Shown here in pieces: positions 29,620 to 51,431 of a stretch of DNA of 51,431 nucleotides. Numbering within the stretch: the stretch's first letter is position 1; every line of letters begins with the position of its first letter. The stretch spans positions 1 to 51,431 of the forward strand of contig JACPXC010000052.1 of assembly GCA_016196755.1 (NCBI GenBank), written 5' to 3'. This DNA comes from Elusimicrobiota bacterium. GTDB taxonomy: Bacteria; Elusimicrobiota; Elusimicrobia; UBA1565. The notes beneath the pieces were generated by a model. The model ran no database searches. It saw only the letters and a list, made by a program, of their open reading frames with translations, and was not told the DNA's origin. Made by a program: the position numbers and the translations under genes.

Positions 29620-29668
29620 CCGAGCATAGCGCAGGAAATGGTCGACCTTGTGTTCGCAGGAGACGACC

Positions 29669-31639
29669 ATGACGTCCCGCAAGTCCCACGCCAAGAACGT
29701 CGGCCCGCTCAAGCAGGCCGAGACCATCATCGAGATCGCCAGCCGGTTCGGGCCGCTCATCGAGGCCTTGCCCGACGTGGTCTACGTCAAGGACCTGTCC
29801 CTGCGCAACCTGGCGGTCAACGCGCGCTACGAGAGGCTGGTCAAACGGAGCCGCGACGCCATCCTCGGCCACACCGACGAGGACCTCCTGCCGCCGACCC
29901 TGGCCGCCTCCTGCCGCGCCGCGGACCTGTCCGTCCTGAAGTCCGGCCTCGCGCAGCGCTACGAGCAGGTGGGTGACGACGGCACGGTCTTCGACACGGT
30001 CAAGGCGCCGCTCTTGGGGGAGGACGGCACGGCGATCGGGCTCATCGGCGTCTCGCGCGACGTCACCGACTACAAGCGCGTCGAATCGGCCCTGCGCAGG
30101 GCCGAGGAGCGCCTCGGCCGGGTCGTCTCCGAGGCGCCCGTCGTCTTGTTCCAGATCGACCGCCGCGGCGTCATCACCCTGTCCGAAGGCCGAGGCTTGG
30201 CGGCTCTGGGCCTCAAGCCCGGCCAGGCCGTGGGGGCCTCGGTGTTCGAGATGTACGCCCACAACCCGGCCATCCTCGAGAGCGTGCGCCGCGCCCTGGC
30301 CGGCGAGGCCTTCTCGGTCGTCACCAAGGAAGCCGGCCTGTGGTTCGAGATCCACTATCAGCCCCAGCGCGGCGCGGGCGGAAAGGTCGAGAGCCTGCTC
30401 GGGGTGGCGACCGACGTTACCGCCCGGGTCGAGTCCGAGGTCGAGGTCCAGCGCCTGCTCGCCGTCGAGAAAGACCTGCGCGACGAGGCCGAGAAGGCCA
30501 GCCGCGCCAAGGACGACTTCTTGGCCCTCCTCTCGCATGAGCTGCGCACTCCCATGACGGCGATGATGGGCTGGACCTATCTCCTGCGCCAGAAGGAGGT
30601 GGGGAGCCCCGAGTTCAACCAGGCGCTCGAGATCATCGAGCGCAACATGCACCTGCAGGCCCAGATCATCGAGGACCTGCTCGACGTCTCGAAGATCTTC
30701 ACGGGGCGCATGCGCGTCGAACAGCGCTCGCTGGACCTCTCCGCCATCGTGCGCGCGGCCATCGACGTGGTGCGGCCGGTCGCCCAGGCCCACGGCGTAT
30801 CGCTCGACCTGGGGCCGCTGTCCTCGATCATGGTCGTCGGCGACCCGGAGCGGCTCCAGCAGGTGGCCTGGAACCTGCTCTCAAACGCCCTCAAGTTCAC
30901 GCCCGACGCCGGAAAGGTGCTCGTCCGCCTGAAGCGCTCCCGCGACACCGTCGAGCTGACCATCACCGACTCCGGGATCGGCATATTGGCCGAGTACCTG
31001 CCCCACGTGTTCGATCCGTTCAGCCAGGCCGAGCGCGCGCTGACCCGCGAGCACCGCGGCCTCGGCTTGGGGCTGGCGATCGTGCGCCACATCGTCGAGC
31101 TCCATGGCGGCTCGGTCAAGGCCGAGAGCGCCGGGACCGGCTGCGGGTCGACCTTCAGCGTCCGTCTTCCCATCATGGCCGAGGCCCGGGCCCAGGCGCC
31201 GGCGCCCGGCGCGCTCCCTCCCGGCGGGCTCGAGATCCTCTATGCTTCGCTGCCGCGGCTCGATGGGGTCCGGGTCCTCCTGGTCGAGGACGAGCCGCAC
31301 CTTCGTAAGATGCTCGAAGCCTCGCTCAAAGGCCTCGGCGCCGACGTGGAGGCCGCGGCGTCGGCGGCCGCCGCCCTGGCCGCGATGGACAAGCGGGTGC
31401 CCGACGTCCTGATCAGCGACCTGGGGATGCCCGGCACCGACGGCTACGCGCTCATCCGCAAGGTGCGCGCCCGCCCGGCCGACCAGGGCGGCGAGGTCCC
31501 CGCCGCCGCGCTGACCACCCAGACCCGCGTCGAGGACCGCACCCAGGTCCTGATGGCGGGCTTCCAGATGTACCTCCCCAAGCCCGTGGAGCCGGCCGAA
31601 CTGGCCGCCGCGGTGCGCTCCCTGGCCCGCCGGAAGTAA
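29669..31639 (+). CDS. soluble hybrid histidine kinase (PAS-PAS-HisKA-HATPase-REC)
   Basis: A 656-residue sensor kinase without transmembrane helices. Domains in order: PAS about 20-130 (ALPDVVYVKDLSLRNLAVN), PAS about 140-255, HisKA with phospho-acceptor H290 in LLSHELRTP, HATPase about 395-510 (WNLLSNALKFTP, DSGIGI, GLGLGLAIV), and a C-terminal receiver with D584 in ISDLGMPGTDGY. It senses a cytoplasmic signal, possibly redox or a small ligand. ATG 29669 is chosen over 29648 because GGAG precedes it by a good distance. It has no receiver partner next to it; the stop codon is followed directly by the insertion element. Confidence 0.92.
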   Translation: MTSRKSHAKNVGPLKQAETIIEIASRFGPLIEALPDVVYVKDLSLRNLAVNARYERLVKRSRDAILGHTDEDLLPPTLAASCRAADLSVLKSGLAQRYEQVGDDGTVFDTVKAPLLGEDGTAIGLIGVSRDVTDYKRVESALRRAEERLGRVVSEAPVVLFQIDRRGVITLSEGRGLAALGLKPGQAVGASVFEMYAHNPAILESVRRALAGEAFSVVTKEAGLWFEIHYQPQRGAGGKVESLLGVATDVTARVESEVEVQRLLAVEKDLRDEAEKASRAKDDFLALLSHELRTPMTAMMGWTYLLRQKEVGSPEFNQALEIIERNMHLQAQIIEDLLDVSKIFTGRMRVEQRSLDLSAIVRAAIDVVRPVAQAHGVSLDLGPLSSIMVVGDPERLQQVAWNLLSNALKFTPDAGKVLVRLKRSRDTVELTITDSGIGILAEYLPHVFDPFSQAERALTREHRGLGLGLAIVRHIVELHGGSVKAESAGTGCGSTFSVRLPIMAEARAQAPAPGALPPGGLEILYASLPRLDGVRVLLVEDEPHLRKMLEASLKGLGADVEAAASAAAALAAMDKRVPDVLISDLGMPGTDGYALIRKVRARPADQGGEVPAAALTTQTRVEDRTQVLMAGFQMYLPKPVEPAELAAAVRSLARRK

Positions 31640-31640
31640 G

Positions 31641-31755
31641 AGTTCTGATTAGGGACAGTCCCTGAAATTCACATTCGTGTTAGTGATGGGGATTTTTACG
31701 CGCTTCGGGCGCGTGGATTCGCGGATTGCGAACGACCGCAATCCGCGAATCTCGG
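31641..31755 (+). repeat. left end repeat with three hairpins
   Basis: Hairpins at 31651-31663 (AGGGACAGTCCCT), 31698-31714 (ACGCGC loop TTCGG GCGCGT) and 31716-31751 (15-bp perfect stem GATTCGCGGATTGCG, 6-base loop). The outermost bases are AGTTCTGATT. Confidence 0.85.
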
Positions 31756-31862
31756 GGAATTAACGGCGGGAAGGGTCGGCGAACGGCGTGCACGCTTCGC
31801 GCACGGTCCAGGTTTCAAATTCGGAGAATGACCCTAATCACGAGGGCGCTATCGGACTCTTG

Positions 31863-32297
31863 CTAGTCGTTCTGATTGAGGAACGCGGGCATTAATTTCT
31901 TGAGCGTGGTGAGAGAAATCGGGTGCTGTCCATTCTTCGGAATCGGCTTGCTCTTAACGACAGTCCATGCCCGATCGCCGTTGCCATTGAATATCTCAGT
32001 GAATTTTCCCTCGCGGCCTATTTTGAGGACTAAGAGGTGTTGGGGGGCGCATCGAAGGCCGATCCGAGTACCTTGAGTCGCTTTCACCTCTACAGCCCTC
32101 TCCCCGCAGGTAGCATCCCGCCCCGGAGTGGAGGCTGTCAGGAGTTCTAGGCCGTAGTAGTAGGCAGCGAGCGCCTCGCCGAGACTGCCCACCATGTGCC
32201 CGTCCGGAGTGAAGTGCCGCCCCGGGAACATCCCCTCCAGTTCATCGACTACTTCGTAGAGACGCCGGATTATCTCTGGAAATCGTACCTCGTCCAT
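31863..32297 (-). CDS. DUF6998-like protein with PD-(D/E)xK-type motif
   Basis: A 144-residue protein carried inside the insertion. It reads like members of the DUF6998 family as I remember them (SLGEALAAYYYGLELL, ASTPGRDAT, KATQGTRIGL, KNGQHPISLTTLKKLMP). D61 in PGRDAT followed by E70-V-K72 gives D-x8-ExK, with E41 upstream. That is the order expected for a restriction-endonuclease-like active site, so a nuclease is plausible but unproven. The codon use and composition are less GC-biased than the neighbours. Upstream are TAGTAT/TATTAT boxes and a GGAG only 2 bases from the ATG. Confidence 0.7.
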   Translation of the reverse strand: MDEVRFPEIIRRLYEVVDELEGMFPGRHFTPDGHMVGSLGEALAAYYYGLELLTASTPGRDATCGERAVEVKATQGTRIGLRCAPQHLLVLKIGREGKFTEIFNGNGDRAWTVVKSKPIPKNGQHPISLTTLKKLMPAFLNQND

Positions 32298-32352
32298 TGC
32301 TCCGCAATAATACTAAACACGATCACTGACACCGTTGGGCGCCTTTCCAGCC

Positions 32353-32467
32353 TCGAGCTTCACGGATTGCGGCCGTTGCAATCCGTGAAGCCACGCGCCC
32401 GAGGCGCGTAAATAGCCTCATGACTGAAGCCAAATGTGAAGTTCAGGGACTGTCCCTAATCAGAAGT
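32353..32467 (-). repeat. right end repeat with three hairpins (inverted copy of left end)
   Basis: Hairpins at 32357-32391 (14-bp stem GCTTCACGGATTGC, 7-base loop), 32393-32409 (ACGCGC loop CCGAG GCGCGT) and 32445-32457 (AGGGACTGTCCCT). The outermost bases read ACTTCTGATT from the end inward. Substitutions relative to the left end in the long stem are matched on both arms. Confidence 0.85.
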
Positions 32468-32468
32468 C

Positions 32469-33473
32469 TTAACGGAGGCTGGGGTCGGCCTGGAGGCAGG
32501 TCACGGCTCCCAGGTTGACGATATCGTCGACGCTGGCGCCGCGCGAGAGGTCGTTGACGGGCTTCGCGAAGCCCTGAAGGATGGGGCCGACCGCCTCCGC
32601 CCCGGCCAGGCGCTGGACGAGCTTGTAGCCGATGTTGGCGGACTGCAGGTCGGGGAACACCAGGACGTTGGCCCTGCCGGCCACCTTGCTGCCGGGGGCC
32701 TTGCGGGCGCCGATCTCGGGGACCAGGGCCGCGTCGGCCTGCATCTCCCCGTCGACTAGCAGGTCCGGCGCCCTCTCCTGGGCGATGCGGACGGCCTCCC
32801 GGACGTGATTGACGAGCTCGTGCTCGGCCGAGCCCTTAGTCGAGAAGGAGAGGAAGGCGACCCGCGGCTCGAGGCCGCAGAGGGCCTTGGCCATGCGCGC
32901 CGTCGAGATGGCGATGAGCGCCAGCTTGCGCGGGGCGGGGTCGATGTTGATCGCGCAATCGGCCATGAGGAGGAGCCCGCCGTCGCCGACCTTCTTGTCC
33001 GGGAAGACCATGATAAAGAAGCTCGAGATCGCCGCCACGCCGGGGGCGGGCTTGATGATCTGAAGCGCGGGCCGGATGGTGTCGGCCGTGGCGTGCGCGG
33101 CGCCGGAGAGGAAGCCGTCCACCTGATCGGTGTGGAGCATCATGGTCCCGAAGAACAGCGGGTCGCCCATGAGGCGGTCGGCCTCGGCGGCGTCGACGCC
33201 CTTGTGCTTGCGCAGTTGGTGGTAGGCGGCGGCGAACTGGGCGCGCCGGTGGTCGCGGACCGGGTCGACGATCTCGACGTCCTGGAGGTCGGCGCCGCCC
33301 TGCGCGGCCAGGCCGCGGATCGTCGCGGGGTCGCCGAGCAGGACCGGCCGGGCGATCCGCTCCTGGGCCATGACGGCGGCGGCTTTGACGGTCCGGGCGT
33401 CCGTGCCCTCGGGCAGGACCAGTCGGCGGGACGAGGCGCGGGCGGCCTCGCGCAGGCGTTGGACGATTTCCAT
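32469..33473 (-). CDS. pta: phosphate acetyltransferase
   Basis: A 334-residue enzyme converting acetyl-CoA and phosphate to acetyl phosphate and CoA, for acetate overflow or ATP formation with acetate kinase (not in this window). It is the short, catalytic-domain-only type. Typical blocks: RRLVLPEGTDARTVKAA, DPLFFGTMMLHTDQVDGFLSGAAHATADTIRPALQ (the family M-x-x-x-G-x-x-x-x-x-x-G-x-x-x-T-x-x-x-x-R pattern), LLMADCAIN, and GRANVLVFPDLQSANIGYKLVQRLA. Ends next to the right repeat of the insertion, which touches its stop codon without damaging it. Confidence 0.95.
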   Translation of the reverse strand: MEIVQRLREAARASSRRLVLPEGTDARTVKAAAVMAQERIARPVLLGDPATIRGLAAQGGADLQDVEIVDPVRDHRRAQFAAAYHQLRKHKGVDAAEADRLMGDPLFFGTMMLHTDQVDGFLSGAAHATADTIRPALQIIKPAPGVAAISSFFIMVFPDKKVGDGGLLLMADCAINIDPAPRKLALIAISTARMAKALCGLEPRVAFLSFSTKGSAEHELVNHVREAVRIAQERAPDLLVDGEMQADAALVPEIGARKAPGSKVAGRANVLVFPDLQSANIGYKLVQRLAGAEAVGPILQGFAKPVNDLSRGASVDDIVNLGAVTCLQADPSLR

Positions 33474-51285: not shown

Positions 51286-51289
51286 ACCA

Positions 51290-51431
51290 ATTCTGATTGG
51301 GGACACTCATTAGAAGTTCTGCCGTCAAGAGGCAAAGCGTCCCCATCCCACGGTCGTGGTAGCTCGTCGCGTCCGGCACGATCTTTAAGGCGCTACGCAC
51401 CCTGGTTCTCTCACGTTTGGTGTCGGCACGA
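51290..51431 (+). repeat. repeat related to the ends of the 31641 insertion (runs to window end)
   Basis: From 51290 the sequence reads ATTCTGATTGGGGACAC, close to the insertion's GTTCTGATTAGGGACAG. GGGGAC recurs as GTCCCC about 40 bases on, which could form a large imperfect hairpin. The rest of the segment is less GC-rich, without a recognisable gene; it may be the edge of another element of the same kind. Confidence 0.4.

Follow-up and report, generated by a model that had tools for sequence, protein, structure and literature searches.

An 827-base mobile cassette (positions 31641-32467) lies between the genes for a hybrid histidine kinase and a phosphate acetyltransferase (pta) in an uncultured Elusimicrobiota bacterium, and is probably a non-autonomous, cargo-carrying TIRYT element mobilised in trans (probability about 0.62). 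The window, that is the whole stretch of 51,431 nucleotides that was analysed, represents contig C16 in the 4.59-Mb genome G000. The kinase gene (29648-31639, + strand, stop codon TAA at 31637..31639) and pta (32469-33473, − strand, stop codon TAA at 32469..32471; best named matches in Elusimicrobia MAGs) flank the element, with each stop 1 base beyond it, a spacing that had been claimed in an earlier note on this DNA and agrees with the stop coordinates. The GC content of the element is 56%, compared with 70% for the window.

Inverted arms are present at 31637-31675/32433-32471 (95% complementary) and 31682-31729/32378-32425 (85% complementary). Each 115-nt end folds as single-stranded DNA into the three hairpins described in the earlier note, namely a GGGAC palindrome, a short hairpin and a long hairpin, with stability z-scores of −6.3 and −6.7 (0 of 200 shuffles were equally stable). 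The end comprises two modules, a 37-nt outer arm and an inner double-hairpin module, referred to here as the core. The left outer arm, a class A terminal inverted repeat (TIR) with the sequence AGTTCTGATT-AGGGACAGTCCCT-GAAATTCACATTCG (31641..31677, + strand), contains the palindrome AGGGACAGTCCCT (31651..31663), which is hairpin 1 of the left fold. Hairpin 2 is the short hairpin ACGCGC-TTCGG-GCGCGT (31698..31714, + strand), the sequence-conserved anchor of the core, and hairpin 3 is the long hairpin GATTCGCGGATTGCG-AACGAC-CGCAATCCGCGAATC (31716..31751, + strand), which has a covarying stem and an ACGGC-type loop. The left core half is closed by a further hairpin-forming repeat, GTGCACGCTTCGCGCAC (31788..31804, + strand), common to most copies, and is followed by a degenerate internal copy of the outer arm (31817..31840, − strand; inverted with respect to the left arm, 79%). 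At the right end are the outer arm, also a class A TIR (32431..32467, − strand, palindrome AGGGACTGTCCCT at 32445-32457), the short hairpin ACGCGC-CCGAG-GCGCGT (32393..32409, − strand) and the long hairpin GCTTCACGGATTGC..GCAATCCGTGAAGC (32357..32391, − strand), which covaries with its left counterpart. The sole open reading frame in the element, which the earlier note leaves unmentioned, encodes a 144-residue DUF6998 protein (31863..32297, − strand) and, as had been noted before, there is no transposase inside.

In four relatives (G001, G002, G003 and G004) the convergent kinase-pta pair is found without the element, with 0-35 bp between the genes, which indicates that it was most likely inserted in the G000 lineage; loss in the relatives is less likely. 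The empty site is predicted to be GTAAG^CTTAAC, with nearly abutting stop codons. The earlier note had suggested looking for such empty sites, and their presence makes its mobile element very likely; its alternative, a domesticated cassette, has nothing in its favour, the element being absent from all relatives examined. No target duplication of 4-9 bp was found at the window element, unlike the exact 8-bp duplications of the class C elements described below. The 3-mer AGT is present on both flanks, as it is for the copy on C14, and could be a short target duplication.

The class A arm matches the ends of two Y1_Tnp genes on other contigs of G000, namely C34 (E = 1.5e-12 left and 6e-11 right) and C31 (E = 5e-12 and 3e-8). 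Both proteins score above the Y1_Tnp cut-off, share 64% identity and possess the HuH residues NHFH and Y(I/V)HxNP (YIHNNP / YVHRNP). The C-terminus of the C31 transposase has a weak match to HTH_29, under the cut-off (E = 4e-4), and none was found in C34. Both reading frames terminate within their own terminal repeat (..ANVNFRECP*; L008 and L015), such that the repeat encodes the C-terminus of the protein. TIRYTs are Y1/HuH transposase genes located between terminal inverted repeats (PMC3733652) and belong to Y1 subclass 2.1 (PMC6006769); the repeat consensus given in the TIRYT passages of both papers is GGGGWSAS. Some arms contain GGGGACAC/G, which could fit this consensus, those on C25, C14 and C26 have GGGGACAG/C and the window copy has AGGGACAG. 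Another class-A-like end, AATTCTGATTGGGGACACTCATTAGAAGTTCTG, is present near the contig end (window positions 51289-51315) and is possibly a solo or truncated TIRYT repeat.

In G000 the class A arms enclose four different contents: nothing (the bare doublet on C25), a TIRYT gene (C31 and C34), the core only (C67 and C11, each with one end broken by an insertion) and the core together with a gene (the window element). The junctions between arm and core vary among these copies, which leaves room for piecemeal assembly of the cassette instead of its movement as a whole. The assembly is broken at several related copies, and some left or right ends are unreadable. Five insertions of the sequence MKLYAAIDLHSNNN, which is presumably IS110-like, are found at the identical point of the class A palindrome (GGGACTG^ATAATC), where they cause contig breaks (L001 1-135, L004 1550-1679, L005 2355-2488, L006 1907-2037 and L015 1-135). 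Known IS110/IS1111 elements likewise target REPs.

Arms occur without hairpins (the bare doublet and the two TIRYT genes) and hairpins occur without arms, also within DDE-type ends. As the two are separable, the covarying hairpins are not supported as the ends recognised by the transposase, and the inner hairpins probably do not have this role in the cassette. None of the 12 Y1 genes of G000 or the 28 of the relatives is flanked by the core, the list of cores in G001 being incomplete, and core number does not track Y1 number (85+ cores and five Y1 genes in G001; no cores and five Y1 genes in G004). The earlier note had proposed mobilisation in trans and a search for a RAYT-type (Y1_Tnp) gene bearing the element's ends. 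Genes of this type with the outer arms at their ends are present on C31 and C34, which makes the proposed mobilisation plausible; recognition through the covarying hairpins, which the note had also proposed, is the part that found no support.

In this reading, a TIRYT expressed from C31 or C34 would recognise the 37-nt arms as single strands, presumably at the replication fork, and would excise everything between them by cleavage in trans. Re-insertion would then have taken place, with no long target duplication, in the gap of a few bases that separates the ends of the convergent kinase gene and pta. The passengers between the arms would be the DUF6998 gene and the two inverted double-hairpin copies. 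The long stem is perfect in each half independently, which suggests that the core most likely works as a DNA hairpin or cruciform formed locally.

IS200/IS605 elements (IS608) are similar to the cassette in their subterminal hairpins, the lack of a long target duplication and the Y1 chemistry that we infer for it. Unlike them, the cassette has true inverted-repeat ends and neither tnpB nor a tnpA (Y1, Y---Q) of its own, and the transposases with matching arms are of class 2 (Y---NP), not IS200-like. REP/RAYT systems are usually portrayed as tiny repeats with domesticated, immobile transposases. We know of no structure-conserved hairpins in TIMEs. In these mosaic non-autonomous transposons, as described in the relevant passages of PMC4133298, the ends also move heterogeneous DNA; unlike those of the cassette, they are derived from Tn3 and are not HuH-associated. 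REPINs, which are RAYT-mobilised inverted REP doublets (PMC3116915), are likewise non-autonomous hairpin doublets with a cognate Y1 gene in the genome, and compensatory changes have already been noted in them (PMC3116915). In contrast to REPINs, the window arm has no GTAG tag (GT[AG]G is absent from the foot of the palindrome, where REPINs and RAYT systems have it), the spacer is 750 bp and contains a gene, and the long-stem covariation is in a separate inner module. The closest system is the TIRtron/TIRYT (PMC3733652, 2013), which in the TIRYT passages has Y1/HuH genes within TIRs, GGGGWSAS-like cores and genomic dimers; the two class A transposases of G000 fit this description, whereas the window copy has no transposase and has a cargo gene and a nested hairpin module. 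The passages on TIRYTs in PMC3733652 and PMC6006769 contain no cargo-bearing form. In G000 these ends enclose nothing in one place, a transposase gene in others and, at a position unoccupied in relatives, a foreign nuclease-like gene, which makes gene carriage by TIRYT ends directly testable.

The core is an independent repeat family with its own history and is a passenger in the cassette. A search of G000 with the left-end sequence gave 64 matches. The family is characterised by a TTTACGCGC-YTCGG-type short hairpin, a long hairpin and GTGCACGCTTCGCGCAC, and usually occurs as an inverted pair of 200-550 bp. A covariance model built on 39 sequence-selected halves, a search that the earlier note had suggested, detects about 60 halves in G000. 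When the search was widened to relatives up to the level of order and class, 20 of 57 genomes had matches, with at least 85 in G001, 28 in G003 and fewer in the others. Five of 150 genomes in a phylum-wide draw match the model, four of which are from the same order. The core is essentially confined to one order.

The long stems are perfect within each end of the window element (15/15 and 14/14 pairs), and the two positions at which the left and right stems differ are both compensated. In an alignment built from sequence-only matches in G000 (36 distinct halves, 14 arm alleles), nine of the 14 long-stem pairs are altered on both sides, and there are 65 two-sided and no one-sided standard-pair changes. 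The covariation score was matched by none of 500 shuffles, and slid controls are only 25-46% paired. Among the 503 stem cells, 497 are Watson-Crick, three are G-T and three are mismatched. The earlier note had deduced from the two window ends that differences in one arm are compensated in the other and that pairing is conserved rather than sequence; both deductions hold across the copies in G000. The two halves of one element often differ, yet each pairs perfectly within itself, which indicates that the structure being kept is the local hairpin rather than the extended inverted repeat. In other genera the long stem is wholly different and still paired, beside a conserved short hairpin. The relatives' set used for this de novo stem check was picked by the structure-aware model and is biased, so it serves as supporting evidence and the main case for covariation is built on the sequence-selected G000 set. 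G-T wobbles are almost absent, which speaks more for maintenance at the level of DNA than of RNA.

The covariation might instead be a mutational by-product, in which template switching between the hairpin arms repairs mismatches and there is no selection for pairing. The near absence of one-sided intermediates and the few G-T pairs are as strong correction would yield, but between genera the long stem changes completely and the loop and short hairpin stay alike, which suggests a constraint on the whole shape. We regard this explanation as possible and the less probable one; it concerns the cause of the pairing and can hold alongside a TIRYT cassette as the explanation of movement. The stem may be kept up by selection on a DNA hairpin or by template-switch correction. 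The module, which is shared by elements of differing transposase chemistry and has near-perfect compensation and almost no wobble pairs, is an unusually clean case for asking whether a protein, replication or template-switch repair maintains the pairing of DNA hairpins over evolutionary time.

A tentative alternative for the movement itself is that the core and not the arms is the transposable unit, i.e. a MITE with a terminus of approximately ACGGAGCAATTTACGCGC that entered a class A doublet and later captured a gene. Solo cores without arms are present in G000 (C37, C59, C27, C50 and C38), where other cores also have no recognisable arm, and most copies examined in G001 and G003 are armless, often beginning with ACGG beside a stop codon. 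The site in G001 orthologous to that on C27 is coreless, and the variable arm-core junctions within class A would also be expected. Against this, a core-specific target duplication was not found among the copies, and in two other arm classes the boundary is the outer arm. Three copies with the class C arm GGCTCATGGC (C13, C39 and C60) have exact 8-bp duplications flush with the outer arm and not with the core, and in class D (arm CTCCAAGTTCCCGGGG) the similarity between copies at unrelated sites sets in at the outer arm. Many solo cores and class A elements lie directly at stop codons (TAA-ACGG, TAG-ACGG and CCGT-TCA; L260-L284, and L243-L259 in G001/G003), and the gaps at sites orthologous to stop-abutting copies are sometimes only a few bases.

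The arms around the core are of several kinds. The class B arm is 100% identical over 30 nt to sequence at a Y1 gene on C26. The three class C copies combine a GGCTC-type TIR, which we take to be ISL3-like, with the 8-bp duplication, a combination not found at the window element. Class D comprises two sets, each of five nearly identical ends that lie in differing sequence contexts, and has one 7-bp duplication. The idea that all outer arms are RAYT ends was rejected for classes C and D because of the class C duplications and the lack of a significant Y1 match for either class. The class D ends (L285-L293) are located at contig ends, on C8, C28, C35, C40 and C49 and on C5, C9, C26, C36 and C60, consistent with an element that has been amplified recently and of which the assembly lacks the interior. 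One class C armed core (L266, G000:C56:13900-14550) is nested in another inverted repeat, GGTGCCATACATTGAGAAG, possibly a third Y1-type repeat.

The core also occurs in G010:C45, at the left end of a complete IS1380-type element with 21-nt inverted ends, a CCTGAA-type TIR and a CTAG duplication. The arms of the window element are unrelated to this TIR and the hairpins follow the terminus in the opposite order; neither a CCTGAA-type TIR nor a 4-bp duplication, as in IS1380 MITEs, was found at the window element, the ends of which are AGTTCTGATT. For the IS1380 gene beside a hairpin half in G006 (C155), a clear TIR pair was not found. In G014 there are short IS1380-type relatives with similar ends, one of which has both the CCTGAA-type TIR and a 4-bp duplication. 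These short elements (L309, L312 and L241; approximately 390-460 bp) have several extra hairpins between their ends, e.g. GGCGCCGAC..GTCGGCGCC, and resemble structured non-autonomous elements.

The double hairpin could conceivably be a structure-defined hitchhiker, though we would not favour this: one homologous module, anchored by the short hairpin and loop and free in stem sequence provided that it pairs, would be lodged in the ends of transposons of unrelated classes (HuH TIRYT, ISL3-like and IS1380 DDE) across one order. It could then be a micro-element that is itself mobile, or a DNA-structure signal common to these transposons that helps any carrier, perhaps through fork stalling, insulation or host-protein binding.

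A structured RNA or a transcription terminator serving both convergent genes is a highly unlikely role for the core halves. The hairpins are strong, many copies are next to stop codons and REPs often act in RNA, according to passages of PMC3733652, but no Rfam family reached its gathering score anywhere in the window and an RNA stem would tolerate more G-U than the three G-T cells seen. The terminator was rejected because T-runs are absent after the hairpins on both strands and the neighbouring genes are not always convergent, several copies being between divergent or co-directional genes (rough codon-usage gene call). Least probable of all is that an ordinary DDE insertion sequence lost its transposase and left its long inverted repeat as the ends seen here. 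The class C relatives and the intact G010 element are precedents, but the arms of the window element belong to class A, have matches at Y1 genes and lack a 4-9-bp duplication.

The assignment of the cargo protein to DUF6998 is strong (E = 1e-43). DUF6998 was detected in two of 56 genomes of the order. In G000 a single element copy has it, so the mobility of the gene-bearing form rests on its absence in relatives; DUF6998 as a recurrent cargo was rejected on both counts. The match to a type II restriction model is weak (E = 0.011). Residues E41, D61 and K72 (VEVK at 69-72) are invariant across plasmid homologues and are in the order of a PD-(D/E)XK nuclease. A homologue on a Shewanella plasmid has a methyltransferase and an S subunit nearby, and a role for the cargo in defence is only a guess.
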